Virus record (IMG/VR): IMGVR_UViG_3300032116_000714 | Location: 1 to 34,760 of that record | Length of the DNA stretch: 34,760 bases | From: a virus | Direction: 5' to 3' (one strand) | Part shown: piece by piece, positions 4,231 to 33,416 of the stretch | Numbering within the stretch: the stretch's first letter is position 1 | Layout: each line of letters begins with the position of its first letter | Translations under genes and position numbers: made by a program | Notes under the pieces: generated by a model | Databases searched by the model: none | The model's input: only the letters and a program-made list of their open reading frames with translations | What the model was told of the DNA's origin: nothing

Positions 4231-4293
4231 GAACGCTAAGTAGAACCCTTCTTCCTAAGACATTAGGTTGCAGGGATTGAATAGGGGAGAAAC

Positions 4294-4444
4294 CCCCTTA
4301 AAGATTCCTTAAGGAACCTTAATGATCCTTAAGGGGTCTTTAAGACCCTTAAAGGGTCTTTGTAGGGATGTAAGTAGGGGTTATCTTTAGGACTCCCTAA
4401 AGGTCCTTAACGGTCCTTAAGGTACCTTAGAGAACCCTAAGGGA
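4294..4444 (+). repeat. Array of CTTAAGG-type short repeats downstream of the terminase
   Basis: About a dozen imperfect copies of a 6-8 base word (CCTTAAGG, CCTTAAAG, TCTTTAAG, CCCTAAAG, CCTTAACG and variants) lie in 150 bases in both orientations. Many form small palindromes, for example GGGTCTT-T-AAGACCC at 4334-4348. T7 carries arrays of imperfect CCTAAAG heptamers (SRR and SRL) next to its terminal repeats. By word and position after the large terminase this looks like the SRR counterpart. A role in packaging or end formation is inference. Confidence 0.7.
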
Positions 4445-4761
4445 CATTCCTACCGTATCGTGCCTATGACCATTTCCTTCATGTTCGGTATCGAGTTAGA
4501 GGACCTAGAGGACTTGGAAGATGAGGAGTGCCCTTAAATGGGCCACCCCTAGCCCAGATGCCCTACGATGCCCTATAAGGCGTTTGAGGGCTTGGGTGGG
4601 GGTAGAGGACCCTAGAGGGCTTAGTCAGCCTCCTAGGGCCATTCACGGGCCAGCAAACGGGTGTCTGGTCTGAGTGTCTAAACCCGGAAGGGTCTGGAGG
4701 GGTACTAAGGGTCCCTGTTCGGAGCGGTGTTAGGGACGGGTAAGGTGCGTGTAGAAGGCTC

Positions 4762-4806
4762 GACAGGTAAGGTCACCTGTCAGGGTGTCTACACTATAGG
4801 TAAAAC
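4762..4806 (+). promoter_or_regulatory. Inverted repeat followed by a T7-promoter-like sequence
   Basis: GACAGGT (4762-4768) and ACCTGTC (4775-4781) form a perfect 7-bp inverted repeat. Directly after it comes GTCTACACTATAGGTAAAA, whose CACTATAGG core (4791-4799) is identical to the core and start site of the T7 late promoter. Given the T7-type polymerase gene in this window it is a reasonable candidate phage promoter, perhaps a phi-OR or phi-OL equivalent at the genome end. Only one other good candidate (16568-16590) was found by eye, so no consensus could be built. Confidence 0.4.
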
Positions 4807-4858
4807 CCCTATCACCTTCCCCGTCCTTAACGATCCCCTCTGGGTGCCATTATGACAC

Positions 4859-4916
4859 TTTCCGCAAGTTCTGTCGAAAACGCGGAAAAACGATAGAACC
4901 GCTCAAGGTTCTATCG
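4859..4916 (+). repeat. Two adjacent strong hairpins
   Basis: The first hairpin pairs TTTCCGC (4859-4865) with GCGGAAA (4882-4888). The second pairs CGATAGAACC (4891-4900) with GGTTCTATCG (4907-4916), a perfect 10-bp stem with a 6-base loop. Read on the minus strand the second hairpin is followed at once by TTTTT, so it would be a good intrinsic terminator for leftward transcription; read on the plus strand it has no T-run. Alternatives are a packaging or replication structure near the genome end. Confidence 0.6.
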
Positions 4917-4934
4917 GGTGTGGTGGGAACTTGA

Positions 4935-4990
4935 GGGGACCCTTAGGGGACCCTTAGGGGACCTTAAGGAGATTTTGGAGAAAAAATCTC
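4935..4990 (+). repeat. Tandem GGGGACCCTTA repeat followed by a hairpin
   Basis: GGGGACCCTTA occurs at 4935-4945 and 4946-4956, followed by GGGGACCTTA at 4957-4966. The unit shares the CCTTA word of the array further upstream. Immediately after it, GAGATTTT (4969-4976) pairs with AAAATCTC (4983-4990) around a 6-base loop. Function is unknown; the place in the end region suggests a packaging or processing signal. Confidence 0.6.
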
Positions 4991-5151
4991 AGAGCCTTAT
5001 ACGATGACCCCCGCACTCCACTATCCCCCCTGCCCCCTTCCGATCCCTACGGTCGCCTCACTTGACCCGGTGGGGTGGCGTGCCTATGCTTGGGGGTCTG
5101 GTCCGCCCATCGGTTCGCACGTTCCGCCAAGACCCCCCGCAGATGCGGATA

Positions 5152-5222
5152 AGGGGATGCAAGGGGATAACGTGCCGGGACGATACATGCCCGCAAGGCA
5201 CCCATAGGGGATGCTAAGGGGC
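5152..5222 (+). repeat. Direct repeat AGGGGATGC-(T)AAGGGG
   Basis: AGGGGATGC followed by AAGGGG is at 5152-5166, and AGGGGATGC followed by TAAGGGG at 5206-5221. The spacing between copies is 54 bases. A related AAGGGGATAA copy directly follows the first one. This may be a binding site pair; I have no evidence for the partner. Confidence 0.45.
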
Positions 5223-5242
5223 TGATGGGTGGCTTATATCCG

Positions 5243-5402
5243 AATACTCACCCGCGAATGGCAGACGGGTGTTCGCGTACACGCAAGTATTAGGCTTGTG
5301 TGGTCTTTGCCAATCTTCCGCACGCCAATAGCAAGGCTTGTGCAGAAGGTTATAACGATAATCCATACACCTAGGGTGTTAGCCTTACACTACTTCTAGT
5401 GT
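5243..5402 (+). repeat. Cluster of nested inverted repeats
   Basis: AATACT (5243-5248) pairs with AGTATT (5286-5291) and encloses CACCCG (5249-5254) paired with CGGGTG (5266-5271). CGCGAA (5253-5258) could instead pair with TTCGCG (5272-5277), giving an alternative or pseudoknotted fold. Two further small hairpins follow: ACACC-TAG-GGTGT (5367-5379) and ACACTA-CTTC-TAGTGT (5387-5402). AGGCTTGTG is directly repeated at 5292 and 5334. The density of dyads in a non-coding stretch suggests a structured RNA leader, a replication origin or end-processing site. Confidence 0.5.
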
Positions 5403-5561
5403 TTGTTACCACCCTTACGTATCCTTCCGGTATCTTTCAACATATCGGTACGTACGATAGTGTATACCCTATCCAATCCCTAGAGAGTCTAGATAGACCA
5501 TCAGGGTAGTAGAACGGTTGTACAAGTGTATGCTAGTGTTGTGCCGAGAGGCCTTATCGTG

Positions 5562-5609
5562 AGTCTATCCGATCGTCGGTGATTATACCCCACGACAATA
5601 GACTATAGT
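5562..5609 (+). repeat. Long imperfect hairpin overlapping an ACTATAG box
   Basis: AGTCTAT (5562-5568) pairs with ATAGACT (5598-5604), enclosing GTCGgTG and CACGAC arms. The right arm runs into GACTATAGTG, which resembles the CTATAG core of the candidate promoter at 4791-4799. It may be a promoter embedded in a hairpin, but the downstream GG start is missing, so the promoter reading is weak. Confidence 0.4.
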
Positions 5610-5709
5610 GAACCCTACCGACAAGTGTTGGGAAGGGTGTCCAAGGCTATAAATAATCATCCATGTAGGCCCCTAGATTACTCTGGGGGCTTATCTTTCA
5701 ACCTAGGCC

Positions 5710-5746
5710 AACCACACAATCTGATAGGTGTTCTATCGGGGTGGTT
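5710..5746 (+). repeat. Leader hairpin upstream of the first early gene
   Basis: AACCAC (5710-5715) pairs with GTGGTT (5741-5746) and an inner GATAG (5723-5727) pairs with CTATC (5733-5737) around GTGTT. The structure ends 12 bases before the ribosome binding site GGAG (5759-5762) of the first early gene. T7 early mRNAs are cut by RNase III at hairpins placed like this, so a processing or stability role is plausible. A weaker GCCCC/GGGGC hairpin followed by TTATCTTT lies just upstream (about 5668-5697). Confidence 0.45.
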
Positions 5747-5770
5747 GTCCCCTTACTTGGAGTGTGTATC

Positions 5771-6211
5771 ATGGATAATGGTTCTACTGCCGTGCTTGAC
5801 GTTGAAGCCCCGCAAGGTGAAGCCGTCAAGCCCCTCCCCTTTGGGGTGGAGTTTCTTGATCTGGTTGACCAGTTTGACTCTGACAAGTGGATTGTCAAGG
5901 GGAACGACTGGACCACACAGATCAAAGACTTTATCGAAGTGGTGGGCAAGACTCTTGGCGGTGCTATGCTTGCCGGTACGGCGGAGCAGATCACTAAGGC
6001 CGCCGCCAAGTCCCGCAAGGCCGCCACGCTGGCCCGTGAGTTTCGTATGTTGGCCGTTCTGCTTCGTGCATCGGCCCAGAACGCCTCTCTGTCTGTGTCT
6101 GCTGCTGGGGACACCTACCGTGCCCAGCACGCCCTTACGCTCGCTTTCGGCAAGGTTGGGGATATCCGCAAAGACTTCCGTGCGGTGTTCACCTACGCTA
6201 AGGGTGAGTAA
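5771..6211 (+). CDS. Hypothetical protein, first early gene
   Basis: 146 residues, no family recognised. ATG at 5771 is chosen because GGAG at 5759-5762 is well spaced. Roughly equal acidic and basic content, so it is not an Ocr-like acidic DNA mimic although it occupies the first-gene position that in T7 holds the anti-restriction gene 0.3. Residues 60-105 are an Ala-rich amphipathic helix run (AEQITKAAAKSRKAATLAREFRMLAV is split here into AEQITKAAAKS and AATLAREFRMLAV). The gene stands alone: structured leader before it and a strong terminator 34 bases after it, which suggests a short, abundant early transcript and a host take-over role (inference). Confidence 0.7.
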   Translation: MDNGSTAVLDVEAPQGEAVKPLPFGVEFLDLVDQFDSDKWIVKGNDWTTQIKDFIEVVGKTLGGAMLAGTAEQITKAAAKSRKAATLAREFRMLAVLLRASAQNASLSVSAAGDTYRAQHALTLAFGKVGDIRKDFRAVFTYAKGE

Positions 6212-6244
6212 TCGTCTACAACTCAACTAGGGAATATCTGATGG

Positions 6245-6281
6245 GGCCTCTATTGGTGAAAGCCAATGGGGGCCTTTTATT
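6245..6281 (+). terminator. Intrinsic terminator T1
   Basis: A 12-bp stem, 6245-6256 with 6263-6274 (two G-T or T-G pairs, no mismatch), has the loop TGAAAG and is followed by TTTTATT. Stem, loop and T-run are all textbook. The loop is identical to that of the terminator at 33364-33400. Confidence 0.9.
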
Positions 6282-6314
6282 GTGTTATCTTTCCACCCCC
6301 TTATGGAGCCTAAA

Positions 6315-6521
6315 ATGATCCCTGAGATTGGTTCTAAGCCTACCCGTGAAGAGGCGTTGGCGTACTGTGAGGCACGCTTAGCGGAAAGGCGTGCTATTTA
6401 TAATAGTGCCAGGGCTTTGCATGACAGGGCTGGCCACGTTGTTGATCTTGCATCGGAGCAGGTGCATGAAATCAAGGCCGCCAACCAGAAGTTTCTCAAA
6501 CAACTCGGATACGTAGACTGA
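6315..6521 (+). CDS. Hypothetical small helical protein
   Basis: 68 residues from ATG 6315, which has GGAG at 6305-6308 six bases upstream; an in-frame ATG at 6303 overlaps that site and is less likely. The sequence is one long predicted helix (REEALAYCEARLAERRAIYNSARALHDRAG) and ends KFLKQLGYVD. The ending recalls the LVKSLGI ending of the small proteins at 7353 and 13239, so it may be a distant member of that family. The gene is enclosed by two terminators (T1 before, T2 after), which is unusual and implies either its own promoter or read-through control. Confidence 0.65.
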   Translation: MIPEIGSKPTREEALAYCEARLAERRAIYNSARALHDRAGHVVDLASEQVHEIKAANQKFLKQLGYVD

Positions 6522-6564
6522 TTAGACGCACAGTTTATATCTATCGTCTTCAGTCTTTCATATG

Positions 6565-6599
6565 GCCCCCATTGTCTAACCACGATGGGGGCTTTTATT
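6565..6599 (+). terminator. Intrinsic terminator T2
   Basis: GCCCCCAT (6565-6572) pairs with ATGGGGGC (6585-6592), with two further possible pairs inside, followed by TTTTATTG. It lies 43 bases after the 68-residue gene. The TTTTATTGTGTT following it closely matches the sequence after T1, so the two terminator blocks may be duplicates. Confidence 0.88.
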
Positions 6600-6633
6600 G
6601 TGTTTCAATCCTTGTGCCTTTTCTGGAGCCTTT

Positions 6634-7128
6634 ATGAAGAAGATCACGTTAGAACTTGTAAGGGACGATTGGGGGGCTTGTTATCGCCCAGAACGCCTCG
6701 CAAGCCTCTATGACCGCCCCATGACGGTCTTAGAAGTCCTGACACGCAAGGACGGTCCTTGGGCTAGTGTTCCCGATGCGGACCGTCTATGGACTGTTCT
6801 TAGAGAGGGCGTTATCGACGATAGAACGCTCCGCTTGTTTGCTTGCGATTGTGCTGAGCGGGTTTTGTCGCGTGCTGCAAACCCTGATCCACGGTCTGTA
6901 GAGGCCATCAAGGTTTCCCGTAGGTTTGCTTATGGGGATGCTACGGAGGAGGAGCTTAAGAACGCCGCCGCCTACGCCGCCGCCTACGCCGCCAACGCCG
7001 CCGCCAACGCCGCCAACGCCGCCTACGCCGCCGCCTACGCCGCCGCCAACGTCGTCAACGCCGCCGCTCGGAACGCTGAGCGAGCCTTGCAGGTTGCCTA
7101 TCTCGTCAGGGTTTTCACCCTCAACTGA
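6634..7128 (+). CDS. Alanine-repeat protein with an immunity-like N-terminal motif
   Basis: 164 residues from ATG 6634 (GGAG at 6625-6628). Residues 70-105 contain LRLFACDCAERVL and a following ARRFAYGDAT-like segment (here VSRRFAYGDATEEEL), a pattern I associate with bacterial and phage proteins annotated as putative immunity (Imm-5-like) proteins. Residues 110-145 are a low-complexity run built from AAYAA and AANAA units, predicted to be a long regular helix. The matching DNA is a tandem GCCGCC-TAC/AAC repeat, so length could vary by slippage. No enzymatic motif is visible. The family link is from memory and should be taken as a lead. Confidence 0.65.
   Translation: MKKITLELVRDDWGACYRPERLASLYDRPMTVLEVLTRKDGPWASVPDADRLWTVLREGVIDDRTLRLFACDCAERVLSRAANPDPRSVEAIKVSRRFAYGDATEEELKNAAAYAAAYAANAAANAANAAYAAAYAAANVVNAAARNAERALQVAYLVRVFTLN
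6963..7066 (+). repeat. Tandem GCCGCC-NAC coding repeat
   Basis: About one hundred bases are built almost only of GCC codons interrupted by TAC or AAC every two to three codons. This encodes the alanine-rich helix of the overlapping gene. The GC content is far above that of neighbouring genes, and the repeated short unit could expand or contract during replication. Confidence 0.85.
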
Positions 7129-7173
7129 TTGTGTTTCTTTCCACTCCCTTTTATCTTTGCTTAGGAGTCCCCA

Positions 7174-7311
7174 ATGGTCCCTCAACATCTTTATGCCCGC
7201 TACCGTTTCGCTTCACAACTCGCCCGTCAAACAGGTTGCTCTGTAGCAATCATTGATGGGAAGGTTTATCTCATTACCGCCATCAGCAAGCAGCGTGTGC
7301 TTGTTCTGTAA
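7174..7311 (+). CDS. Small hypothetical protein (45 aa)
   Basis: 45 residues from ATG 7174 with AGGAG at 7163-7167, six bases of spacing. The sequence (MVPQHLYARYRFASQLARQTG, written here only in part) starts with a basic, aromatic helix and ends with a hydrophobic beta-like stretch (AIIDGKVYLITAI, then RVLVL). No family recognised. It fills an otherwise empty 220-base gap between two larger genes and its ribosome binding site belongs to the recurrent TTAGGAGTCC leader type of this phage, which supports it being real. Confidence 0.6.
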   Translation: MVPQHLYARYRFASQLARQTGCSVAIIDGKVYLITAISKQRVLVL

Positions 7312-7352
7312 GTGATGGTGCCGTTGTTTAGTCTCTTTAGAAAGGAATGTGC

Positions 7353-7574
7353 ATGCACCCCGAGTATGATTCAGAGCGGGACCCGATACATGAGACTGTT
7401 CTCCGTCTGCGAGAGATTGAGAAGGTACAAGAGGAAATCCGTGAAGAGAGAGCTGAGTTAGTCAAACGAGACAAGTACCTTGATGCTGAATGGGAAAAGT
7501 ACCAGAGAGAGCGTATCGCTCTGGTTAAGAGTCTTGGTATTACGATTCCAAAGACGCAGTACGTTCGTGGGTAA
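7353..7574 (+). CDS. Small coiled-coil protein, VKSLGI family copy 1
   Basis: 73 residues. ATG 7353 is preferred over ATG 7347 because AAAGGA (7341-7346) abuts the latter. The middle is strongly charged and heptad-like (EEIREERAELVKRDKYLDAE), predicted to be a coiled coil, and the end is RERIALVKSLGITIPK. The same ending (RERIDIVKSLGIRIPR) occurs in the protein at 13239-13535, so the two are paralogues about 6 kb apart. Function unknown; such small early proteins often bind host proteins (inference). Confidence 0.7.
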   Translation: MHPEYDSERDPIHETVLRLREIEKVQEEIREERAELVKRDKYLDAEWEKYQRERIALVKSLGITIPKTQYVRG

Positions 7575-7596
7575 ACCCTTTAGAAAGGATTAGAGA

Positions 7597-7965
7597 ATGT
7601 CAATCGTCATAGCTGGTGTGGCTGAGGTTCTTAAAGAAGCCCGAAAGTTGCTGCCGGATGAAGAGCATTGGACGAAAGGGGCTTATTTTCGACGTTTGGA
7701 CGACGATGAGAAGGCTTTTTGCCTTGTAGGTGCTGTTGAGAGAGCGGCACGCTTCTTGGGGCCTAAAGACACGTTCAGTCCCAGAGAGAGAGCAGACTTC
7801 TGTAGGAAGCACCTTCTCACTACAATACGCAAGCGTACCCGCAGGTCATCCCCGTTTGTCTCATCTTACAACGACGCTCCGGGCCGCACCTACAAGCAGA
7901 TCATTGGTGTCCTTGACGCTGCCATTGCCGCAGCAGAAAAAGAGGAAGCAAATGTTGGTAAGTAA
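7597..7965 (+). CDS. DUF6197-like protein, copy 1
   Basis: 122 residues. The pattern W-T-K-G-A (residues 26-30), then a C-L-V-G-A segment, and finally YNDAPGRTYKQIIGVLDAAI matches what I know as the DUF6197-type family, found in phages and actinobacteria without known function. Three further members lie nearby (7952, 8514 and the enlarged 10347). The start ATG 7597 follows AAAGGATTAGAGA. The gene overlaps the next family member by 14 bases, so the pair is translationally coupled. Conserved Trp, Cys and the YND-T-H/Y motif suggest a shared fold and probably binding rather than a known enzyme site. Confidence 0.75.
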   Translation: MSIVIAGVAEVLKEARKLLPDEEHWTKGAYFRRLDDDEKAFCLVGAVERAARFLGPKDTFSPRERADFCRKHLLTTIRKRTRRSSPFVSSYNDAPGRTYKQIIGVLDAAIAAAEKEEANVGK

Positions 7966-8320
7966 TCAGGATGTGTTGAAGGTTCTTAGGTCCGCTAGGC
8001 GGCGTATTGCGACCCCTGAAAGGTGGATTAAGGGGGCAATGGAACGCCACGAGGAAGGTAAGGGTGTCCGGTATTGCCTGCTCGGTGCTATCTATAGTGC
8101 CGCTTACGCAGGGAAGATTGGTAAAGAGGCTCGCTGCTGCCATGTGTTAGCCAAGGCCACAAGGAATGTAGTAAGAAAGCGGCTACCCTCTTATTATGCC
8201 GATGCAACGGAGGCGATTTCTCTTGCCATGTTTAATGACCGCCCCGCAACAACCCATAAGGACGTATACAAGGTCCTTACTCGTGCTATCAAAGAAGTGG
8301 AGGCCAAATGTCGAACTTAA
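7952..8320 (+). CDS. DUF6197-like protein, copy 2
   Basis: 122 residues from ATG 7952 with AGAGGA at 7941-7946, inside the end of copy 1. It shows VLRSARRRIATPERWIKGAM, then YCLLGAI and the C-terminal FNDRPATTHKDVYKVLTRAI, the same three blocks in the same order as copies 1 and 3. The middle (residues 50-90) is basic and differs between copies. Copy 2 is closer to copy 3 at 8514 than to copy 1. A longer reading frame starting near 7730 is open but would run through copy 1 and has no ribosome binding site of its own. Confidence 0.75.
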   Translation: MLVSNQDVLKVLRSARRRIATPERWIKGAMERHEEGKGVRYCLLGAIYSAAYAGKIGKEARCCHVLAKATRNVVRKRLPSYYADATEAISLAMFNDRPATTHKDVYKVLTRAIKEVEAKCRT

Positions 8321-8520
8321 GGAACGGCACCCCGCCTATAAAGGTGGCAGGACCATTCGGTATCTACCAGACGGCCTATGGTCGGTCAACGTCGGGTCTC
8401 TGGGGTGTCATTGAAGTTGTTACCAGCGATGGGCTGTGGATCGAATACCCGTGTGCTTTGTCCAAAGAACAGGCCATAGCGAGGTGCCATGAACTATACT
8501 CTAAGGAGCCGCCATGTTAA
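8308..8520 (+). CDS. Small hypothetical protein
   Basis: 70 residues from ATG 8308 with GGAGG at 8299-8303. No family recognised. The sequence is compact and beta-like (GPFGIYQTAYG, WGVIEVVTSDGLWIEYPC) followed by a short helix (SKEQAIARCHELYSKE). It overlaps copy 2 of the DUF6197-like family by 13 bases and the next copy by 7 bases, so it is translated within that operon. The layout, a two-layer alpha-beta mini-domain, resembles small binding domains but no active site is visible. Confidence 0.65.
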   Translation: MSNLRNGTPPIKVAGPFGIYQTAYGRSTSGLWGVIEVVTSDGLWIEYPCALSKEQAIARCHELYSKEPPC

Positions 8521-8873
8521 GCAACACCGACCTAACCCTCAGAATCCTTAAGAGTGCCCGCAAGTTGATTGAGACTCCTGATAGGTGGATTCAAGGCGTA
8601 CTGGAAAGGCCCCGTTGGGACGATACCATGTGCTACTGTCTTGAAGGTGCCGTAAATGAGGCCGCCCGAGCATTGAGGGGTAACGTGGGTAATGCGGTAG
8701 CAACGGACTCTGCGTACAATAAAGTGCGACGTGCCGTTCTGAAACGTGCAGGCCGCCCTATGGCTCCCTGTTCATATAATGATTCCCCCCTCACAACCCA
8801 TAAGGACGTTCTGGCGGTCCTTGATGGTGCCATAGAGATCGCCCAGAAGGAAGGGGATAGTGTGGAACCATGA
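8514..8873 (+). CDS. DUF6197-like protein, copy 3
   Basis: 119 residues from ATG 8514 with AAGGAG at 8503-8508. Family blocks: ILKSARKLIETPDRWIQGVL, MCYCLEGAVNEAARAL, and YNDSPLTTHKDVLAVLDGAI. It shares the THKDV block with copy 2 and the AA-rich helix after the Cys block with copy 1. The stop overlaps the next start (ATGA at 8870). Repeated duplication and divergence of one fold in a 1.3 kb stretch suggests selection for different partners, as in anti-host or anti-defence proteins (inference). Confidence 0.75.
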   Translation: MLSNTDLTLRILKSARKLIETPDRWIQGVLERPRWDDTMCYCLEGAVNEAARALRGNVGNAVATDSAYNKVRRAVLKRAGRPMAPCSYNDSPLTTHKDVLAVLDGAIEIAQKEGDSVEP

Positions 8874-9190
8874 ACGATAAACCCATCGTTACTATCGGTA
8901 AGACTTCTCAATATGGGCAGTCTCTCTTTGTTGTACGCCGCCCTCTCGACGCTGGGAACTGCCCTTATGTATCTGTGCAGCTACCTACAGAGATCGCAGA
9001 GTGGCTAAAGGGGCTGTGCGATACGTCGCTCAATGGGCCGATGCCTCCAGTACCTTTTAAGAAACCAGTCTGTGAGCATGAGTGGATCGCACTCCCTCGC
9101 CTCACAGGTCCCCCACTTTATGAGGCATGCCTTAAGTGTAATCTATTAGTAAGAAAGCGAGTAGAAGATGCACCGTTCCCACCTAAGTAG
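8870..9190 (+). CDS. Hypothetical protein with a possible zinc site
   Basis: 106 residues. The C-terminal third contains C-E-H-E-W (Cys68, His70) and, 20 residues later, C-L-K-C (near residues 91-94), a spacing that could bind one zinc ion. The N-terminal half (FVVRRPLDAGNCPYVSVQLPTEIAEWLKGL) is beta-rich followed by a helix. No family is recognised. Start overlaps the upstream stop (ATGA), so it is coupled to the DUF6197-like operon. Confidence 0.65.
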   Translation: MNDKPIVTIGKTSQYGQSLFVVRRPLDAGNCPYVSVQLPTEIAEWLKGLCDTSLNGPMPPVPFKKPVCEHEWIALPRLTGPPLYEACLKCNLLVRKRVEDAPFPPK

Positions 9191-9377
9191 TAAAAGCAAG
9201 AAGCCCCCAGTACAAATCTGGAACCGTGTCCCTACCCTCACCCGCCACGGACGCATCTCACTCATGCTGAGGAACCTTGACTACAGGACTAAGGATATGC
9301 CTGAGTTGAATGAGTTTGTGCAGGAACTTCGTGGAGAGATTGCAACGTTGTGGTCAGAGGATGGCACAACGAAGTAA
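9168..9377 (+). CDS. Small hypothetical protein
   Basis: 69 residues, basic N-terminus (MHRSHLSSKSKKP) and an acidic helical C-terminus (MPELNEFVQELRGEIATLW). Its start lies 23 bases inside the previous gene and the ribosome binding site is weak (purine-rich GAGTAGAAG). It fills the space to the next leader, and no better frame exists, so it is probably real. Function unknown. Confidence 0.5.
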   Translation: MHRSHLSSKSKKPPVQIWNRVPTLTRHGRISLMLRNLDYRTKDMPELNEFVQELRGEIATLWSEDGTTK

Positions 9378-9422
9378 GATGTATGTCTGTCCCTTAACCC
9401 CTTTTCATTAGGAGTCCTTAGC

Positions 9423-9794
9423 ATGTCCATTCTTGCACGCCCACCGAACCGCAGCCGTGTACACAAGATCAATGTGAAGTATGAGCAGACCCTTAGGATT
9501 CTTACGGGTCTTAAGCATCTGCTGCGTATTTATGGTCCTTCGGTCCCTATTTGGAATGATTCGCTTCTCCAGATCATTACTGATATTACAATCAAGGGGA
9601 GGCGGAGCAAGAAGAACCGGAACAACGCTTTCGTGTACCTTACGTTGTCTGGGATAGTCCTTCCTTGGCGGTTCAACAAGTGCATCCGTGAGGATGGTAT
9701 GCACATTGTACATCTGAATGAGGCGGCAGATGCGGCGATCGCACTGTTGAAGGCAGACTGGGCAATGGAACTCAAGGAGGCAGGTGTCCAATGA
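9423..9794 (+). CDS. Hypothetical basic protein
   Basis: 123 residues from ATG 9423, with AGGAG in the recurrent TTAGGAGTCC leader at 9409-9418. The N-terminal half is basic (RPPNRSRVHKINVKYEQTLR; later KGRRSKKNRNN) and could bind nucleic acid. The C-terminal half ends in a helix (NEAADAAIALLKADWAMELK). No family recognised. It overlaps the next gene by 4 bases (ATGA), so both are probably made together. Confidence 0.65.
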   Translation: MSILARPPNRSRVHKINVKYEQTLRILTGLKHLLRIYGPSVPIWNDSLLQIITDITIKGRRSKKNRNNAFVYLTLSGIVLPWRFNKCIREDGMHIVHLNEAADAAIALLKADWAMELKEAGVQ

Positions 9795-10324
9795 GTGTAC
9801 ATACATACTCCACAGGTGCCCATAGGACTACTAACAGGGGCTATAGCTGCCTTGAGGTTATGAAGGCGGGGGCCAAAGCGTTTGCGGCGGCAATCACTAA
9901 AGCGTTCCCTAAAGACCGCTCGCTTGTCCTTGTTGCCCCTCCAATGTCCGGTGCAGTCCTTGCGGGTGCCACAAGAATCTTCCTAAAGCACACTGACGTA
10001 AAGATCATTGATCCCACACGGCCTAATAGATACGGATACATCACAAGTGGCTGTGCTGTTATCTGGATTGATGACTGCTTCAATATGTGTACTCAGATCA
10101 TAAAGTATCTTGACAAGAAACACTGTGTCCCTGATCTGTGCTGTGTGCTGGCGGCGGATAACTCTAATCCCGATGGGCAGTATGAACTTAATAATGAGGA
10201 CGCATGGGGAGAAGAGGATTATGTTCTACGCTTTGAGCCCTTCAAGAAGATGGCCGATAAAGGTACCCTTATCTATGTAGCAAATGTACATGAGGATGGT
10301 CCTCCTGTACCGTTCTTTGTGTAA
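9791..10324 (+). CDS. Phosphoribosyltransferase-like protein
   Basis: 177 residues. A core strand LVLVAPPMSGAVLAGATRIF is followed about 40 residues later by CAVIWIDDCFNMCTQI. The second block fits the type I phosphoribosyltransferase PRPP-loop pattern (four hydrophobics, D-D, four residues, then small-x-T), and the first fits the upstream strand and PPi loop. Such enzymes join a base to PRPP in nucleotide salvage. The loop has Cys and Met where Gly or Thr are usual, so it could be a non-catalytic relative. Neighbours give no clear pathway; an RNA ligase lies 1.2 kb downstream. Family call is tentative. Confidence 0.5.
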   Translation: MSVHTYSTGAHRTTNRGYSCLEVMKAGAKAFAAAITKAFPKDRSLVLVAPPMSGAVLAGATRIFLKHTDVKIIDPTRPNRYGYITSGCAVIWIDDCFNMCTQIIKYLDKKHCVPDLCCVLAADNSNPDGQYELNNEDAWGEEDYVLRFEPFKKMADKGTLIYVANVHEDGPPVPFFV

Positions 10325-10346
10325 CCCTTTACTTAGGAACCCCTCA

Positions 10347-11045
10347 ATGTCTCAAGCATCCCTTACCCTCCCCTCACTTGACCCGAGCAGCCTTACCAGC
10401 GGACGCTCAAGCCCGCACCTTACGGCAGCAGACTCGCCCAAGATTGACGATCTTGCTAAGGCATTAGCAGCGGCGTTCAATAAGCGGCCCTTGAAAACCA
10501 CACCAACGCAGGTCCTTGCAGTCCTTACGGCATCCAAGCGGCGGATCAAGAACCCTAAGAACTGGAGGAAGCGGGCTCTTGCTACGCTTGACATCCCCGG
10601 AATCGGTTTTTCAAAGCTGCCCAATGAGATTTACGACGACTTCGGTTTGTACTTCTTCGAAGGATCAACGGACGGGTTTCTTATGGTTCCTAAGGAACTC
10701 GACAAAGACCTTTGCATGTGTGCTTATGGTGCTGTAGCCCGAACAGTGTGTGTCGATCGGCGGTCCCTTGCGGCTGGTGAAGCGGCTGTCCTTGTTGCGG
10801 GCTTATCTTCACTCTTCACAAAGCGGCAGCCTTTTAATCAAGGGGACACTGTTCTACTCGATTATCTTGAGGCCCCTTCCTTTGATCTTAAACAACTGCT
10901 CTACCGTGTTGTGTACCACATGAACGACTACGAAGGTACCTCACACAACGATGTGTTGTACATCTACAACCTTGCTATTGCCGCCGTTAAGAAGTACATC
11001 AAGAACCTTAAGGAGACCAGCAATGCCGCACCGTCCGCTCTGTGA
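10347..11045 (+). CDS. Enlarged DUF6197-like protein, copy 4
   Basis: 232 residues from ATG 10347 (TTAGGAACCCC leader). Residues 1-50 are a Ser/Pro/Leu-rich extension. Then come the family blocks: VLAVLTASKRRIKNPKNWRKRAL, CMCAYGAVARTV and, near the end, MNDYEGTSHNDVLYIYNLAI. Between the first and second blocks an insert of about 45 residues (beginning GIGFSKLPNEIYDD) is present that the short copies lack, and another lies before the YHMNDY block. So this is a lineage-specific expansion of the same fold. The end overlaps the next gene by 23 bases. Confidence 0.7.
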   Translation: MSQASLTLPSLDPSSLTSGRSSPHLTAADSPKIDDLAKALAAAFNKRPLKTTPTQVLAVLTASKRRIKNPKNWRKRALATLDIPGIGFSKLPNEIYDDFGLYFFEGSTDGFLMVPKELDKDLCMCAYGAVARTVCVDRRSLAAGEAAVLVAGLSSLFTKRQPFNQGDTVLLDYLEAPSFDLKQLLYRVVYHMNDYEGTSHNDVLYIYNLAIAAVKKYIKNLKETSNAAPSAL

Positions 11046-11271
11046 TATCGCTAGGGAAATCCAGAAAGACTGGTCGAAGGACGGAACCAAGCCTATCTAC
11101 TTCGGGGCTGTCCCTTATCTGCAAGCCATGCGTACCATGTCGCACGTTGCGGAGAACTACGGGGCTGATGAGGGTAGGTCCATTGTTATCTACTTCCTTG
11201 CGAACGCTAATACATGGAAGGGCGAGACCGCACGGAGGATCAAGAAGGAACTTAAGGAGATGGTAAAGTGA
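11023..11271 (+). CDS. Conserved small phage protein
   Basis: 82 residues from ATG 11023 with AAGGAG at 11010-11015. The sequence runs LCDIAREIQKDW, then YFGAVPYLQAM, YGADEGRSIVIYFLANANTWKG and ARRIKKELKEM. I know this pattern from small proteins widespread in actinobacteriophages and other phages, function unknown. Predicted all-helical. Overlap with the preceding and following genes shows it belongs to the same early operon. Confidence 0.7.
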   Translation: MPHRPLCDIAREIQKDWSKDGTKPIYFGAVPYLQAMRTMSHVAENYGADEGRSIVIYFLANANTWKGETARRIKKELKEMVK

Positions 11272-11537
11272 AGCCAAAGAAACTTAGGTTCCTGAAAGCA
11301 ACCGACGCTGGGTATGCTGTCCCTGCTAGGTGGGTTGCTGTAAATATGCCCGATGAGTTTAGTGCTACCATCAGGAGAAACGGCCTCTACTATGATGTAG
11401 TCATTGAACAGAAGGGCAGGAGCAAGGTTACTTGGGTAGGCGGCCGCACCCAAAAAGGTGCGAGAGATTATGCACAGAGGATGTGGGATGACTACGTTCA
11501 GAGACAGTTGAAGGTCTTACTTGGGAGAACAAAGTGA
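11268..11537 (+). CDS. Small basic hypothetical protein
   Basis: 89 residues from a GTG start that overlaps the upstream stop (GTGA), with AAGGAG eight bases upstream. A basic start (MKPKKLRFLK) is followed by beta-like stretches (GLYYDVVIEQKGRSKVTWVGG) and an amphipathic helix (ARDYAQRMWDDYVQRQLKVLL). No family recognised. The next gene, the RNA ligase, starts by another GTGA overlap, so this protein is made together with the ligase and could be its partner (inference). Confidence 0.65.
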   Translation: MKPKKLRFLKATDAGYAVPARWVAVNMPDEFSATIRRNGLYYDVVIEQKGRSKVTWVGGRTQKGARDYAQRMWDDYVQRQLKVLLGRTK

Positions 11538-12076
11538 GTAACATATTCGTACCGTGGCCCAAGACCCAGCGGTGGTTCGAGAAGAACACCTGCACCATCA
11601 CTGAAAAGCTTGATGGTACCAACGCCTGCGTTGCTATCGACGAGGCAGGTAACATCTGGGCACAGTCAAGAAACCGCATCATCACCCCCGAGGATGACAA
11701 CCACGGATTCGCAAAGTGGGTGCAGGATAACAAAGAGGACCTGCTTAGGATGGGACACGGGCATCACTTCGGAGAGTGGGTCGGACCCGGCATTCAGCGT
11801 GGGTATTCTGATAAAGTCAAGCGGTTCTTCCTGTTCAACTCTAAGCGTTGGCTTGATGAAGCGTCCCGTACCCCTACTTGTTGTAGTGTAGTGCCTGTGC
11901 TAGCGACCCTTGATGGTACCTTAGGGGAGATTGAAGAGGCCGTTCAATATGCCCTGCGTAAGCTTGAGAACGAAGGCAGCGTAGCCTTCCCCAACTTCAT
12001 GCGTCCTGAGGGTGTCTGTGTCTACCACCACAGGTTACGGCAGGTGTTCAAGGCTTATTGCAATGGAGAAGGGTGA
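11534..12076 (+). CDS. RNA ligase (nucleotidyltransferase domain only)
   Basis: 180 residues from GTG 11534. All the usual ATP-dependent ligase motifs can be placed: motif I EKLDGTN (nucleotide-binding Lys25), motif III FGEWVG, motif IIIa FFLFN, motif IV PEGVCVY and motif V VFKAY. It should seal nicked or broken RNA through an enzyme-AMP intermediate. It is much shorter than T4 Rnl2 (334 aa) and lacks a C-terminal domain, so it is a minimal ligase. Phages use such enzymes to repair tRNAs cut by host defence nucleases. No polynucleotide kinase partner is seen. T7 itself carries a DNA ligase (gene 1.3) instead, so a DNA substrate cannot be excluded. Confidence 0.75.
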   Translation: MSNIFVPWPKTQRWFEKNTCTITEKLDGTNACVAIDEAGNIWAQSRNRIITPEDDNHGFAKWVQDNKEDLLRMGHGHHFGEWVGPGIQRGYSDKVKRFFLFNSKRWLDEASRTPTCCSVVPVLATLDGTLGEIEEAVQYALRKLENEGSVAFPNFMRPEGVCVYHHRLRQVFKAYCNGEG

Positions 12077-12318
12077 TGAATAAAAAGATTGTATTGACTG
12101 TTGTGTTCTGTCTTGCATGGGTGCTTGCGGTCTTCTACTCCCCTTTGTGGTGGAACTGGGCGTTCGAGCCTATTGAGAGGTACTATGTGTCTCGTGGGGA
12201 TAAGGTACCGGAGGTTGTGTATCTCCCCACAGTGTACGCCGTTATGATTATGCTGGTCGTTTGGGGTGTTGCGTGTTTCCGTGCGGTTTATGAGGTGTTT
12301 GAAAAGAGGAGCGAGTGA
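12076..12318 (+). CDS. Small two-helix membrane protein
   Basis: 80 residues from ATG 12076, one base overlap with the ligase stop. Two hydrophobic segments: residues 4-22 (IVLTVVFCLAWVLAVFYSP) and residues 50-68 (VYAVMIMLVVWGVACF), joined by a charged loop with EPIERYYVSRGDKVPE. The N-terminus has two lysines before the first segment, so both ends probably face the cytoplasm. No family recognised. It is followed by a second, smaller membrane protein, so the pair may form a membrane unit. Confidence 0.65.
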   Translation: MNKKIVLTVVFCLAWVLAVFYSPLWWNWAFEPIERYYVSRGDKVPEVVYLPTVYAVMIMLVVWGVACFRAVYEVFEKRSE

Positions 12319-12416
12319 TGGACCTATCGAGTTTTCAAGCGGGGAGTCTGTTCGTGGTGCTTTGCTTTATCTTAGCAATGATGTACATAGATAGTAACGA
12401 CAAAGGGAGCAAGTGA
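12318..12416 (+). CDS. Very small membrane protein (32 aa)
   Basis: 32 residues from ATG 12318, overlapping the upstream stop by one base (TGATG) and sharing its last base with the next start. One hydrophobic segment (LFVVLCFILAMMYI) is followed by a charged tail (DSNDKGSK). The ribosome binding site is AAGAGGAGCGAG just upstream. The perfect fit between two genes with coupled start and stop codons is the main evidence that it is real. Confidence 0.55.
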   Translation: MDLSSFQAGSLFVVLCFILAMMYIDSNDKGSK

Positions 12417-12868
12417 TGGCAAAGGAACTCACGAACGAAGAACTGGCGTTGTGGTGTGAGGACATGGGCAAGGTGTTTGTCGAGGTTGCCGCAAGGTCAA
12501 AGAACCCCGACAGTACCCAGATGGGCGAGCCTGTACGCAACGCCTTCACAATCGTTGCCGAACGCCTCCGCAAACCCCCCGATTCCTCCCGTGTCCTAGG
12601 ATCGGCTGAGGTTACTGCCGACGGGTTTACTGTGATGCCTGGAGCGGTCTTGTTCACTCGTGCCCTGCGGGCCGACAGCCCTCCGAGAAGCATCGCTCAG
12701 ATTGTAGTGGTTTCCGTTGGGAACGGGTACGTTTGTGCGGCTGGTGAGTATCCCGCAGACCCCGACCTTCCATACTTACGGCCCAACGACCTTCCATATC
12801 TACTAAGCAACTGCTACGCCACCCGCGAAGCCGCCGTCAACGCCGCTGGCGACTTGGAGGTGAAGTAA
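12416..12868 (+). CDS. Duplicated early protein, copy A
   Basis: 150 residues from ATG 12416 (GGGAG upstream). Residues 1-55 (ELTNEELALWCEDMGKVFVE and, later, AFTIVAERLR) are nearly identical to copy B at 12868, also at the DNA level. After about residue 60 the two diverge completely: copy A continues with beta-like VTADGFTVMPGAVLFT and ends with a short helix. So a shared helical N-terminal domain carries two different C-terminal domains. No function is recognised. Confidence 0.7.
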   Translation: MAKELTNEELALWCEDMGKVFVEVAARSKNPDSTQMGEPVRNAFTIVAERLRKPPDSSRVLGSAEVTADGFTVMPGAVLFTRALRADSPPRSIAQIVVVSVGNGYVCAAGEYPADPDLPYLRPNDLPYLLSNCYATREAAVNAAGDLEVK

Positions 12869-13242
12869 TGGCAAGTGAACTAACGAACGAAGAACTGGCG
12901 TTGTGGTGTGAGGACATGGGCAAGGTGTTTGTCGAGCTTGCCGCGAAGCACCCCGGCGACAAACGCGGTGAGCTTGTACGCAGCGCCTTCACAATCGTTG
13001 CCGAACGCCTCCGCAATCTCCCCGATTCCTGCCGCGTCCGCGAGACGGCGAAGGAGTTGCCAGAAGGGGATTATGGTGTCCGCGTCCTTGTGCTTGATCG
13101 ACGCTGCCAGCAGTGGCGAGAGGCCGACGTGGGCTGCCTCCGAGACATGGAGGGCAGGCTTCCCGGCAAGGACTACTATACCCACTGGATGCCCCGGCCC
13201 CCGACCTACATCGTGGGGCCAGATTCAAGGAGACGGATATGA
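12868..13242 (+). CDS. Duplicated early protein, copy B
   Basis: 124 residues from ATG 12868 (GGAGG at 12856-12860), one base overlap with copy A. The N-terminal domain repeats copy A (ELTNEELALWCEDMGKVFVE), with a shortened linker. The C-terminal part (GDYGVRVLVLDRRCQQWREA, then MPRPPTYIV) differs from copy A and looks like a small beta domain. The near identity of the N-terminal DNA points to a recent tandem duplication. Confidence 0.7.
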   Translation: MASELTNEELALWCEDMGKVFVELAAKHPGDKRGELVRSAFTIVAERLRNLPDSCRVRETAKELPEGDYGVRVLVLDRRCQQWREADVGCLRDMEGRLPGKDYYTHWMPRPPTYIVGPDSRRRI

Positions 13243-13535
13243 AAGTTTCATCCTATTGGAAAACGCTGACTTCTGGTCTGGTCGGTACGGCGAAGCTCAA
13301 AATAACCATGCCTGCAACCGGTGAGAAAGTAAGGCTCTCAACGGAGCAGTCCATTCATCGGCTGACGCAAATACAGCAGGAGATCGCCGAACACGAAAGG
13401 GAGTATGACATGCACAGCGGCCTAGCAACCTACCACTACGGCGAGATGAACAGACTAGGGCGAGAGCGGATTGATATTGTAAAAAGCCTTGGTATTCGCA
13501 TTCCGAGGTACGACCCCAAAGATCACGGCTATTGA
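13239..13535 (+). CDS. Small coiled-coil protein, VKSLGI family copy 2
   Basis: 98 residues from ATG 13239 with AAGGAG at 13227-13232; the reading frame stays open further upstream but has no other ribosome binding site. Residues 35-85 are charged and helical (STEQSIHRLTQIQQEIAEHE) and the end is RERIDIVKSLGIRIPRY, matching copy 1 at 7353-7574. Residues 1-30 are unrelated to copy 1. Function unknown. Confidence 0.65.
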   Translation: MKVSSYWKTLTSGLVGTAKLKITMPATGEKVRLSTEQSIHRLTQIQQEIAEHEREYDMHSGLATYHYGEMNRLGRERIDIVKSLGIRIPRYDPKDHGY

Positions 13536-13582
13536 CCGCCCCCACTCCTCGGCTCACCTCAAAGCGATTACTAGAGAACTTT

Positions 13583-14485
13583 ATGAGTAAGAGAATCGAA
13601 CTACTAAGCAGCAACTTTAAGCTCGCTAAGACCCCCCTAGGTACCTCTAAGAAGTACCTAATCGCGGGCTTGGCCTTGGCCCCCGCATCCAACAGCGGCT
13701 ACAACGTATGCCCTTGGTCAACTCCTAAGTGCCGCCAAGCGTGTGTCTTGTGGTTCGCTGGCCGTACCGTGATGGCTCCGGTGCGTGAGGCGGCACTCCG
13801 CCGTACCCGTATGTTCTTTGAGGAACGCGAAGCATTCCTAACGCAGCTTAAGCATGAGATCAGGCTGCTTGTTAAGCGTGCTGCAAAGGCCGATGCCCAG
13901 CCTGTAGTGCGGTTGAATGTCGGCAGTGATATTAGTTGGGAATCTGTGTGCCCTGAGGTGTTCTCTGAGAATCCCGATGTGGTCTTTTATGATTACACAA
14001 AGGGTTATAAGCGGGCCTTGGCGAGCCTTATAAACTCTGAGTGGCCGAGTAGGTATTATCTCACCTACTCTATGTCGGAAGCAGAAGGCAGCGATACATA
14101 TGCGTGGTACATTCTCCAAGCAGGCGGGCGAGTAGCTGCCGTTGTTGCCCCTGACTTTGAGCGTAAGCGTTACCGCTACTCTCCCATGCGTGGCTGGAAA
14201 GACCCACTCCCTACTCGGCTTCTATTCTCAATAGAGAAGAACCAATACGAACATAAAGAATGGAGAGCCGTTGACGCTGACGAGCATGACCTTCGACTCC
14301 CAGAGATGGGCGAGAGCGGTGTGCTGTGCCTCCTTCGGCTCAAGGCTACCGGCAATAGCCAAGAAACGAAAGCCATTACTTCCTCTGGCTTCACTAGGCA
14401 GATTAACCCAGCAGGTACCCGCCTGCTAACCAATGCTGAGTCCCAACTCTTTACACCCCTTACTTTGAAAGGTTCCAATGTTTGA
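13583..14485 (+). CDS. GP88-like protein
   Basis: 300 residues from ATG 13583. The order of motifs matches the family named after mycobacteriophage gene product 88: LSSNFKLAKTPLG, then GLALAPASNSGYNVCPWSTP, a Cys cluster (C-P-W-S-T-P-K-C-x3-C), an arginine-rich helix, VVRLNVGSDISWE, VVFYDYTKGYKR and YYLTYSMSEAEGS. The conserved Cys cluster suggests a metal site. I know of no established biochemical role. A TTG at 13532 overlapping the upstream stop would add 17 residues but has no ribosome binding site. The last 8 bases overlap the next small gene. Confidence 0.8.
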   Translation: MSKRIELLSSNFKLAKTPLGTSKKYLIAGLALAPASNSGYNVCPWSTPKCRQACVLWFAGRTVMAPVREAALRRTRMFFEEREAFLTQLKHEIRLLVKRAAKADAQPVVRLNVGSDISWESVCPEVFSENPDVVFYDYTKGYKRALASLINSEWPSRYYLTYSMSEAEGSDTYAWYILQAGGRVAAVVAPDFERKRYRYSPMRGWKDPLPTRLLFSIEKNQYEHKEWRAVDADEHDLRLPEMGESGVLCLLRLKATGNSQETKAITSSGFTRQINPAGTRLLTNAESQLFTPLTLKGSNV

Positions 14486-14630
14486 GCAGATTAACATGAG
14501 CGATCTATCCCCGTCCGCACGCCGTGAGGTTGATGAAGCGGAGGCTGCTGATACCTTCGGTGAAGTCGATGAACGACTGGACCGCGAAGCGACCAGCAGG
14601 TATCCTAAAGATTCTGACCGTGGTTATTAA
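14478..14630 (+). CDS. Small acidic protein (50 aa)
   Basis: 50 residues from ATG 14478 with AAAGG at 14468-14472, starting inside the end of the GP88-like gene. It is strongly acidic (REVDEAEAADTFGEVDERLD) with no hydrophobic core, so it may be disordered or a short helix that binds a basic partner or mimics nucleic acid. No family recognised. The overlap, the ribosome binding site and the clean stop before the next leader support it. Confidence 0.6.
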   Translation: MFEQINMSDLSPSARREVDEAEAADTFGEVDERLDREATSRYPKDSDRGY

Positions 14631-14668
14631 GTTGTCTCTTTTCTCTTTCCTCTTTTAGAAAGGTTCTT

Positions 14669-15334
14669 ATGTCGAAGTCTTATACGTCAACAGTTGTATA
14701 CCCCGATGGTCATACTATTACTCAGACCTACCCGGATATTGGTAAGATCGGGGCTTGGAGGAATGAACTTCTTGGAAGTTATTCTATTACTTTCCGGGTT
14801 GAGGATTTTGAAAGTTTTGAATATGATGGGGCAGATGCGACAGTATCTTTTAAGGAGGCGACCTTTGTGTATCGAACACCTAAGCAAATGCCTTATGGGT
14901 CTGCCCTCCAAAAAATCTATGTTTCACAGAACGGCGGAGGTAAATGGGATGCCAACGCTGTTAAAGAAGGGGGGAGCATTGTTGGTATATCCGCAAGTAC
15001 AGGCCGATTGAAGCCGTCAAGCCCCTCAGGTAAGCAGTTCTCCGATCCCGCTGCTGCTTTCTACGCCATTCAAACCGCCATCAAGGACACCATTGAGTAC
15101 GGCAACGCAGCCCTTGCGAAGTCTGCGGCGGCCCGTGCGGACGCTAAGTTGCGTGAGGGTATTGCTGAGCAGCGTGAGGCGGCAGCACAAGAGCGGGACT
15201 GGTACCAACTTAAGGCACCTGAAGTAAAGCCATACATTGTTCCCCGTGGGCGGGACATTCAAGTACAGAACGTAGTCATTACGTGGTCTGCTCTTGAGAA
15301 CTGGGCTAACTTTATTGCTAGGAACTCTAAGTAA
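14669..15334 (+). CDS. Hypothetical protein
   Basis: 221 residues from ATG 14669 with AGAAAGG upstream in a CTTTTAGAAAGG leader. The first 115 residues are beta-rich (STVVYPDGHTITQTYPDIG; ATVSFKEATFVYRTP). Residues 125-180 form an Ala/Glu/Arg-rich helix likely to be a coiled coil (AALAKSAAARADAKLREG). The last 40 residues are mixed. No domain is recognised. A long pyrimidine-rich stretch lies just upstream (14631-14655). Confidence 0.65.
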   Translation: MSKSYTSTVVYPDGHTITQTYPDIGKIGAWRNELLGSYSITFRVEDFESFEYDGADATVSFKEATFVYRTPKQMPYGSALQKIYVSQNGGGKWDANAVKEGGSIVGISASTGRLKPSSPSGKQFSDPAAAFYAIQTAIKDTIEYGNAALAKSAAARADAKLREGIAEQREAAAQERDWYQLKAPEVKPYIVPRGRDIQVQNVVITWSALENWANFIARNSK

Positions 15335-15338
15335 AACC

Positions 15339-15518
15339 ATGTCTGAACAAGAACCCGAATCGACCACTATCCGCTACACAGTCAACGTCAAGCGGGGCCT
15401 TAAGGTCCTTACCGAAAAACTTGAGGGCTTTGAATGGGAGGCTATGTCTTCTAAAGATATGGCAAATCTGTCTAAAGCCCTCGATTGGATTGCCCAAGAA
15501 ACCAAAGGAGTCTCTTAA
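15339..15518 (+). CDS. Small hypothetical protein
   Basis: 59 residues from ATG 15339, acidic start (MSEQEPESTT), a beta hairpin-like stretch (IRYTVNVKRGLKVLTEKLEG) and a C-terminal helix (DMANLSKALDWIAQ). The ribosome binding site is weak (AGGA about 14 bases upstream). The stop shares one base with the next start (TAATG). Function unknown. Confidence 0.55.
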   Translation: MSEQEPESTTIRYTVNVKRGLKVLTEKLEGFEWEAMSSKDMANLSKALDWIAQETKGVS

Positions 15519-16528
15519 TGACAACAGCAGCGGGAATCTTCCCCGGTCCCGGTACCCAACAGACCCGCTTCTTTGATGGGATGGTCTTCAGTGGGTACAC
15601 AAAGCCTTTGTTCGAGTCTAACTGTGGCCTAGGTATCAGCGACAGTACATCCTTCCGTGGCGGTTCGTCGCTAGTAGAGAAGTCCACGATCCCCGGCGAT
15701 GGGTGTGTCAACACAGACCCCGCCTTGGGTCCCGATGGGTTTACTGACACGGCCTGCCACGGCAAGTGGAACTACTTTAATGCTAAGGCATGGGCCTCGG
15801 CTGACGTAGTAACAGGTAAGAAGGCAGACCTTATCGCCCCTGATGTATCCTTTGTGATCGCTGAGGGTAAGAAGTATGCCGTTGATATCAAGTACGATAG
15901 CAGCCAAGACATTATTAACTACTGTGCCGGGCTGAATACCTTGTTGTCATGGCTACGAGAGGGGAACCCAGCGGCTATCATGGCCCCTTACGGTACCTTC
16001 ATCCCCGATTGGAACGTCTACAACCAGTCCAGTGCAAGGGCCTTGCTCGCAGTGCAGGCTGACAATCAGCGTCGCAACGCAGCCTACCGCCAGTGGTTGA
16101 AGGAGTACACTCCTAACCTCGACGCTGTTACCTTTGACTTGTATATGCACGACGATGCTAGCCGGGTAGATGATCTCTACTTCCGTAGGCATCTTGCAAC
16201 AACTGTTAAGTACAACATTGATGAGGCCCGTAAGCTCGGCCTGCCTCTGTGTGTATTCATATCAGTGCAATACTTTGAAGAGGGGGACGTTGTAGATGGC
16301 ACTCAGTTTCAACGCCCCGAGGACCTCATGGCTCAGATTGATCTGCTCCGGGTTATGGGTGTAGAATATATCTATCTCCGTGGGGGCCTTACTAAGAACT
16401 CGGGCAGCCCTTCCGCTATCCCGATCACAACTTGGACAGGCTCCTCTAACTTCAAGGCCCTCGTACCGGATAGCCCCGAGATTACCCGAACGATCCTTGG
16501 TGGTATCCGCACTGGTGCCCTGCCCTGA
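15518..16528 (+). CDS. Hypothetical protein, possibly TIM-barrel hydrolase-like
   Basis: 336 residues from ATG 15518 with AAAGGAG at 15504-15510. The order of segments is barrel-like: KYAVDIKYD, AAIMAPYGTFIPDWNVY, LDAVTFDLYMHDDASRVD, a helix (TTVKYNIDEARKLG), LPLCVFISVQYFEEGD and VEYIYLRGG, that is alternating strands and helices with acidic residues at strand ends. This is reminiscent of glycoside hydrolases, but I cannot assign a family or catalytic pair. No signal peptide is visible. It is the last gene before the RNA polymerase and one of the largest in the early region. It could be a host-polysaccharide or cell-wall enzyme; this is speculation. Confidence 0.6.
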   Translation: MTTAAGIFPGPGTQQTRFFDGMVFSGYTKPLFESNCGLGISDSTSFRGGSSLVEKSTIPGDGCVNTDPALGPDGFTDTACHGKWNYFNAKAWASADVVTGKKADLIAPDVSFVIAEGKKYAVDIKYDSSQDIINYCAGLNTLLSWLREGNPAAIMAPYGTFIPDWNVYNQSSARALLAVQADNQRRNAAYRQWLKEYTPNLDAVTFDLYMHDDASRVDDLYFRRHLATTVKYNIDEARKLGLPLCVFISVQYFEEGDVVDGTQFQRPEDLMAQIDLLRVMGVEYIYLRGGLTKNSGSPSAIPITTWTGSSNFKALVPDSPEITRTILGGIRTGALP

Positions 16529-16550
16529 GTAGGGTAATCTACCTAGTACC

Positions 16551-16590
16551 TTAGGTTGCATGAGTAGAATACGGACCATATAGGGATATA
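16551..16590 (+). promoter_or_regulatory. TTAGGTTGCA box and T7-promoter-like sequence upstream of RNA polymerase
   Basis: TTAGGTTGCA (16551-16560) is an exact copy of the box at 4263-4272. It is followed by AATACGGACCATATAGGGA at 16568-16586, which aligns to the T7 promoter (AATACG, then AC, then TATAGGGA) with a single one-base gap. The TATAGGG ending predicts transcription start at the first G. If correct, the phage polymerase drives its own gene from here. The match to T7 is strong by eye but the cognate consensus of this phage is not known. Confidence 0.5.
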
Positions 16591-16591
16591 G

Positions 16592-16690
16592 AAGGGACCC
16601 TTAGGGAACTCTAAGGGTCCTTAAAGGAATCCTAAAGTAATCTTTAGGGAGTCTTTAAGGACTCTTAAGGAACCTTAAAGATAACCCTTC
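16592..16690 (+). repeat. Second CTTAAGG-type repeat array, upstream of RNA polymerase
   Basis: The same kind of short words as in the array at 4294-4444 (CCTTAAAG, TCCTAAAG, TCTTTAGG, CTTTAAGG, TCTTAAGG, CCTTAAAG) fill about 95 bases. A perfect 10-bp hairpin GGACCCTTAG / CTAAGGGTCC lies at 16595-16604 and 16611-16620. In T7 the left array (SRL) lies beside the left terminal repeat, not in front of gene 1. The last part before the polymerase start (16690-16727) is A/T-rich and holds the AAAGGA ribosome binding site. Confidence 0.7.
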
Positions 16691-33400: not shown

Positions 33401-33416
33401 CCCTTAAGGAGTCCTA

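Follow-up and report, generated by a model that had tools for sequence, protein, structure and literature searches.

Genomic context of the terminase–polymerase interval

IMG/VR virus record IMGVR_UViG_3300032116_000714 is a contig of a T7-like phage, and the window analyzed here is the whole record (34,760 bp). It carries two copies of a short sequence box, each followed by an array of CTTAAGG-type words, one copy after the terminase gene and the other before the RNA polymerase gene. The contig opens with tail genes and continues with the gene for the large terminase subunit (2539..4230, + strand; PHROG terminase large subunit, E 9e-105; 48-54% identity with relatives), 1.5 kb of noncoding DNA, the early gene region (5771..16528, +, from the list of open reading frames) and the gene for a T7-type RNA polymerase (16728..19196, +; PHROG RNA polymerase, E 3e-224). 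Beyond the polymerase gene, PHROG matches identify a Gp2.5-type single-strand binding protein, primase-helicase, DNA polymerase, portal, capsid and tail proteins. The record spans the site where T7-like genomes usually end; it is a collapsed linear contig from which the end repeats are absent.

The polymerase shares at most ~35% identity with those of sequenced phages, and the terminase ~50%. Several further IMG/VR contigs encode identical proteins, and two sister contigs with the polymerase gene are 99.9% identical to the window over the shared DNA and add no divergence to the comparison. The terminase query returned no close relative, so the junction at 4.2-5.2 kb is known from one contig only. 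The closest terminase relative is Roseobacter phage CRP-125.

Two matching boxes flank the early region

The 10-mer TTAGGTTGCA occurs exactly at 4263 and 16551, on the + strand in both cases, and these are its sole exact copies in the contig, which also holds no copy with one mismatch. Counted from the box starts, box 1 (4263..4286, +; 33 bp past the terminase stop) and box 2 (16551..16574, +; upstream of the polymerase gene) are identical at 19 of 24 positions, giving the pattern TTAGGTTGCAnGnnTnGAATAnGG. Both are intergenic, co-oriented and at conserved positions. The first-pass annotation had reported the exact repeat, an array of CTTAAGG-type words after each copy, and the enclosure of most of the early genes by the two elements. 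All of this holds: the arrays begin within 25-40 bp, and the early region sits between the boxes.

A lone 10-mer is weak evidence in a 34.8-kb contig, which must contain many exact 10-mer repeats, and the 28 matches to TTAGGTTGCA with two mismatches correspond to chance level. Nevertheless, it is highly improbable that the repeat is a coincidence beside two unrelated low-complexity arrays. The likeness reaches 19 of 24 positions, only 0.45% of random pairs of 66-bp stretches drawn from the window have any 10-mer in common, and CRP-125, BB8 and L103 carry GGTTGCA at each of the two places. When the contig was scanned with the 19-position box pattern, only boxes 1 and 2 rose above chance; the next-best site scores 14/19 in the extended pattern, and first-order random sequence yields ~0.7 such site per genome. 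A weak third box, ATTGGTTGCAGG, lies at the polymerase stop (19196..19219, +), where relatives have a promoter, and its score of 12/19 in the extended pattern is not above chance. Searching the contig for repeated 20-mers revealed no promoter family, the copies being too few.

Evidence that the boxes are probable phage promoters

Post-terminase and pre-polymerase regions were compared in genomes that hold both genes. GGTTGC(A) occurs before the polymerase gene, after the polymerase gene or after the terminase gene in ~30 loci of a broad T7-like clade. At the place of box 1, GGTTGCA is found in CRP-125, BB8, L103 and L154, and GGTTGC precedes the polymerase gene in many relatives, as box 2 does in the window. 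The two regions of CRP-125 have TAGGTTGCACCATAG in common. Exact GGTTGCACCATAG occurs there in five copies, all on the + strand and all intergenic, at places typical of T7-family promoters (on both sides of the polymerase gene, after lysozyme, ahead of the late genes and after terminase); the paper on this phage does not describe the element as a promoter (PMC11092137). After terminase as well as on both sides of the polymerase gene, L103, L168 and BB8 have GGTTGCA(C) or a close variant. In LUZ100, the 15-mer CAATTACCACACAGT is common to the post-terminase and pre-polymerase regions and is the motif of the annotated promoters phi1 and phi8, phage-specific promoters that were identified by ONT-cappable-seq before the polymerase gene and after the terminase gene, respectively (PMC10134795). 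Because the core recurs at conserved places in relatives, and because LUZ100 promoters were mapped at the same two places, boxes 1 and 2 are best read as putative promoters for the phage RNA polymerase. The more modest of two earlier proposals, a cis-element duplicated near the RNA polymerase gene, is thus supported and can be sharpened to promoters of the phage's own polymerase.

The polymerase sequences point in the same direction. T7 RNA polymerase contacts its promoter through residues 746, 748, 756 and 758. Box-bearing polymerases are enriched for Lys at T7 position 748 (27/53 versus 3/34, p 6e-5). Where Lys748 is combined with Tyr758, a box is present in 20 of 21 cases, compared with 10 of the remaining 66 (p 2e-11, which overstates the case because the Tyr758 split was picked post hoc and the loci are related). 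The window polymerase has Arg746 and Lys748, matching other box-bearing polymerases.

Phased arrays

Array A (4297..4443) consists of CTTAAGG-type words at 10-11 bp and comes second in the contig for periodicity (lag-10 z 8.9). Array C (16594..16690), also built of phased CTTAAGG-type words, has the highest 10/11-bp periodicity. A third array, B (4930..4970), which the first-pass annotation did not list, comprises four words at 10-11 bp directly before the predicted genome end and ranks third (lag-11 z 8.3). Measured over 120 bp at a time, 10/11-bp periodicity is 11.0 in array C, 8.3 in array A and 7.3 in array B, and 3.7 at the next place in the contig. CTTAAGG-like words are over-represented genome-wide (CTTAAG outside the arrays, 32 versus 17 expected at order 2, or versus 30 at maximal order); therefore, single words mean little and it is the phased clusters that count. 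Words of primase type (GGGTC/GACCC) reach 20 versus 2 per kb in arrays A and C, a figure that comes from only five words in 248 bp and was not used. The earlier comparison to T7 was correct in that CCTAAAG arrays lie on each side of the 160-bp repeat of that phage.

Among relatives, a search for CTTAAGG words missed arrays built of other words, and a word-free search was used instead. Phased arrays of different words follow terminase in CRP-125 and L168 (period 10 in both); that of L103 is less regular. All three arrays of the window carry palindromic CCTTAAGG words with a phasing of 10-11 bp, and T7 has similar words at its ends and primary origin. These features would suit a box and array that together form a single protein-binding platform (e.g. 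for the terminase small subunit, a single-strand binding protein or a nucleoid-type protein) marking two places of packaging or replication, the box not being a promoter. We consider this unlikely, as the box stands before the polymerase gene without an array in CRP-125 and L103, the box is conserved whereas the array words differ between phages, and the equivalent sites in LUZ100 show transcription.

A predicted short terminal repeat near position 5000

To place the genome end we used a repeat-start signature, AAAATCTGAG...CCCCC, anchored on the known ends of T7 and T3. Aligned repeat starts have a common layout of AAAAT, the cut, and a C-run ~41-44 bases past AAAAT; this run begins at precisely +26 of the repeat in T7, T3 and phiKMV. 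The pattern A4T-N30..42-C5 is present in 48 of 78 post-terminase regions versus 22 of 1130 control segments. Outside the positions that the pattern itself fixes, the matches give the consensus AAAATCTGAGAGGGTATAT, and AAAATCTGAGAGGGTATAT...CCCCC occurs in distant T7-like phages (e.g. L118, L154 and L139) and in T7 at its known end. In the window, the sole regular-expression match is AAAAAATCTCAGAGCCTTA|TACGATG...CCCCCC (4981..5030, +), and a profile trained without the window ranked 4983 first among all window positions. From this signature and the T7 rule, the left genome end is placed at ~5000.

Where the ends of relatives are known or predicted, the repeats measure 127 bp (BB8), 160 bp (T7), 244 bp (LUZ100), 246 bp (Lo5R7ANS), 271 bp (Pasto, by PhageTerm) and 271 bp (ProddE), all located between terminase and the early genes. 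A longer repeat of 985 bp has been reported for the T7-like phage phiIBB-PF7A (PMC3080317). On the basis of the relatives' lengths, we predict a short direct terminal repeat at 5000..5250, with an uncertain right edge at about 5130-5290. An edge of CCCT|ATCTGTT is common to T7, T3 and Pasto but absent from the others, and it was not seen in the window, so it does not fix the right edge. One sister contig begins at 5243; this could be a physical end, or it may reflect chance or an accident of assembly. The true genome end thus appears to be a short repeat near 5000.

The first-pass annotation had also offered a bolder interpretation, in which the segment between the boxes (12.4 kb) would be one long direct terminal repeat that carries host take-over genes in the style of SPO1 or T5. 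In that case the boxes would be border markers. Both borders have a box and an array, and the collapsed assembly of such a genome would give an identical contig. However, the right border is the polymerase promoter box, which is also present in relatives that have ends elsewhere, with 127-271 bp repeats between terminase and the early genes, and the predicted terminus at ~5000, with its signature at 4981-5030, falls within the left part of the segment. The packaged DNA would also be unusually long. Gene spacing in CRP-125 suggests a unique genome of ~45 kb, and with a 12.4-kb repeat the packaged molecule would total an estimated ~57 kb, versus 37-46 kb in the records of relatives. We therefore regard a long repeat as hardly credible, and the 12-kb block between the boxes is most likely an ordinary early region.

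A candidate replication origin upstream of the polymerase gene

The stretch of array C has a GC content of 0.33, the lowest 150-bp value in the contig. The DNA that precedes the polymerase gene falls in the lowest 1% for GC in 16 of 21 box-bearing loci, ten of which have their absolute minimum there. The T7 primary origin has been described with an A/T-rich cluster (PMC12839067). In our comparison, the GC dip of T7 is located after the polymerase gene, where phi1.1B runs into CCTTAAGG words. The window resembles this arrangement in that a putative promoter, box 2, is followed by an AT-rich tract (GC 0.33), and differs from it in location: the tract lies upstream of the polymerase gene, and the region just downstream of that gene is not AT-rich. 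We put the chance that box 2 and array C constitute the primary replication origin at about even.

Proposed organization and comparison with known systems

Taken together, we think it probable that the T7-type polymerase of the phage uses both boxes as promoters, that a short direct terminal repeat lies near 5000, and that the early genes occupy the interval between the junction and the polymerase gene. The contig would then cross the collapsed junction of the right and left genome ends, and the placement of its early genes would match that of T7. Box 1 would give a transcript through array A toward the concatemer junction, like T7 phiOR, and box 2 would drive the polymerase gene (a positive feedback) along with the genes downstream. 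The transcript from box 2 may additionally prime an origin as at T7 phi1.1A/B, in this case upstream of the polymerase gene.

Several observations weigh against parts of this scheme. The window polymerase has Phe at position 758 instead of Tyr. The start region after the core is not as in relatives (CCATAG, CATAAGGATA): the window has GGGATTGAATAGGG and TGAGTAGAATACGG, which agree mutually and in which GGTTGCA is followed by no C and by no CATAG or AAGGATA start region. There are two clear box copies and the weak one at 19196, and none was found before the late genes. A strong pre-polymerase array is present only in the window and L168 and is looser in other relatives. AT-richness is frequent in intergenic DNA generally, and the end signature is not universal, given that SP6 has no C-run.

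Anatomically, the window follows the known plan of T7 with variations. At the right end of T7 (phiOR, the right short repeat, SRR, and the 160-bp repeat), a promoter after terminase is likewise followed by a CCTAAAG-type array, of which array A is the analogue, and then by AAAATCTGAG...CCCCC at the repeat start. The window array lies 11 bp past the promoter versus about 400 in T7, its words are spaced at 10-11 instead of 12-13, and a clear left array (the left short repeat, SRL, of T7) was not seen after the predicted repeat. The T7 primary origin (phi1.1A, phi1.1B and the AT-rich tract) shares with box 2 and array C a phage promoter that leads directly into an AT-rich tract with CTTAAGG words beside the polymerase gene. 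In contrast to T7, the candidate in the window is upstream of that gene and has a single promoter and stronger phasing.

LUZ100 phi1 and phi8 sit where boxes 2 and 1 do with respect to the polymerase and terminase genes, on the same strand and with one motif common to both sites, and the 244-bp repeat of LUZ100 between terminase and the early genes resembles the layout predicted for the window. LUZ100 differs in its motif (CAATTACCACACAGT), in Asp at polymerase residue 748, in the lack of CTTAAGG arrays and in its eight promoters versus two or three in the window. The GGTTGCACCATAG element of CRP-125 is similar to the boxes in its core (TTAGGTTGCA), its strand, its location after terminase and on both sides of the polymerase gene, and the phased array that follows the terminase copy. 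Unlike the boxes, it continues with CCATAG, is present in five copies and has no array before the polymerase gene.

More speculatively, T7-family phages may reuse one element, a promoter leading into a helically phased array, for an origin by the polymerase gene and for concatemer processing by the terminal repeat. In the clade of the window phage the origin would have moved upstream, such that a single promoter would both prime replication and give feedback on the polymerase, and the AAAATCTGAGAGGGTATAT...CCCCC shared by most repeat starts would predict ends without reads. We hold this broader hypothesis only tentatively and think it somewhat more likely to fail than to stand. If true, the physical genome ends that are lost in metagenome assemblies could be located for many T7-family phages by one sequence signature. 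The promoter core conserved over a large clade could lead to new polymerase-promoter pairs, and the role of the T7 short repeats would become testable because the window phage has the array in both settings, by the polymerase promoter and by the genome end. In the open-access literature we found no description of the GGTTGCA promoter or of the repeat-start signature, which is weak evidence of novelty given that subscription papers on the T3/T7 packaging site were outside the scope of the search.

Other features of the contig

Five weak sigma-70 matches, candidate host promoters, occur at 4230-5780, and we place no interpretation on them. A search of Rfam gave zero matches. Directly before the polymerase promoter, a 329-aa (amino acid) protein is encoded at 15539-16525, where CRP-125 and several other relatives carry an integrase; it has no phage or PHROG match, and a 347-aa version has no Pfam match.

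Within the early region, the genes at 12411-12596 and 12863-13039 are tandem duplicates with 86% DNA identity over 187 bp. Similar-looking small early proteins at 7597-7965, 7964-8320 and 8514-8873 also represent tandem duplicates, and the one tested matches DUF6197. The early protein at 6600-7128 has an Ala-rich tail derived from GCC-GCC-(A/T)AC codon repeats, as well as a weak Imm5-like match slightly under the Pfam cut-off. Terminator-like hairpins with a near-identical stem-loop, CTATTGGTGAAAGC, are found at 6244-6281 and 6560-6600 in the early region and at 33364-33405, after the gene that follows the capsid gene.

Two tetranucleotides are strongly depleted. AATT is absent from the window (0 versus 52 expected) and GCGC occurs twice (versus 100 expected), a pattern also seen in sister contigs L010-L016. 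Avoidance of AATT is not seen in relatives such as CRP-125, BB8 and L168. This depletion points to evasion of two host restriction systems that target these 4-bp sites, and it could aid identification of the host.

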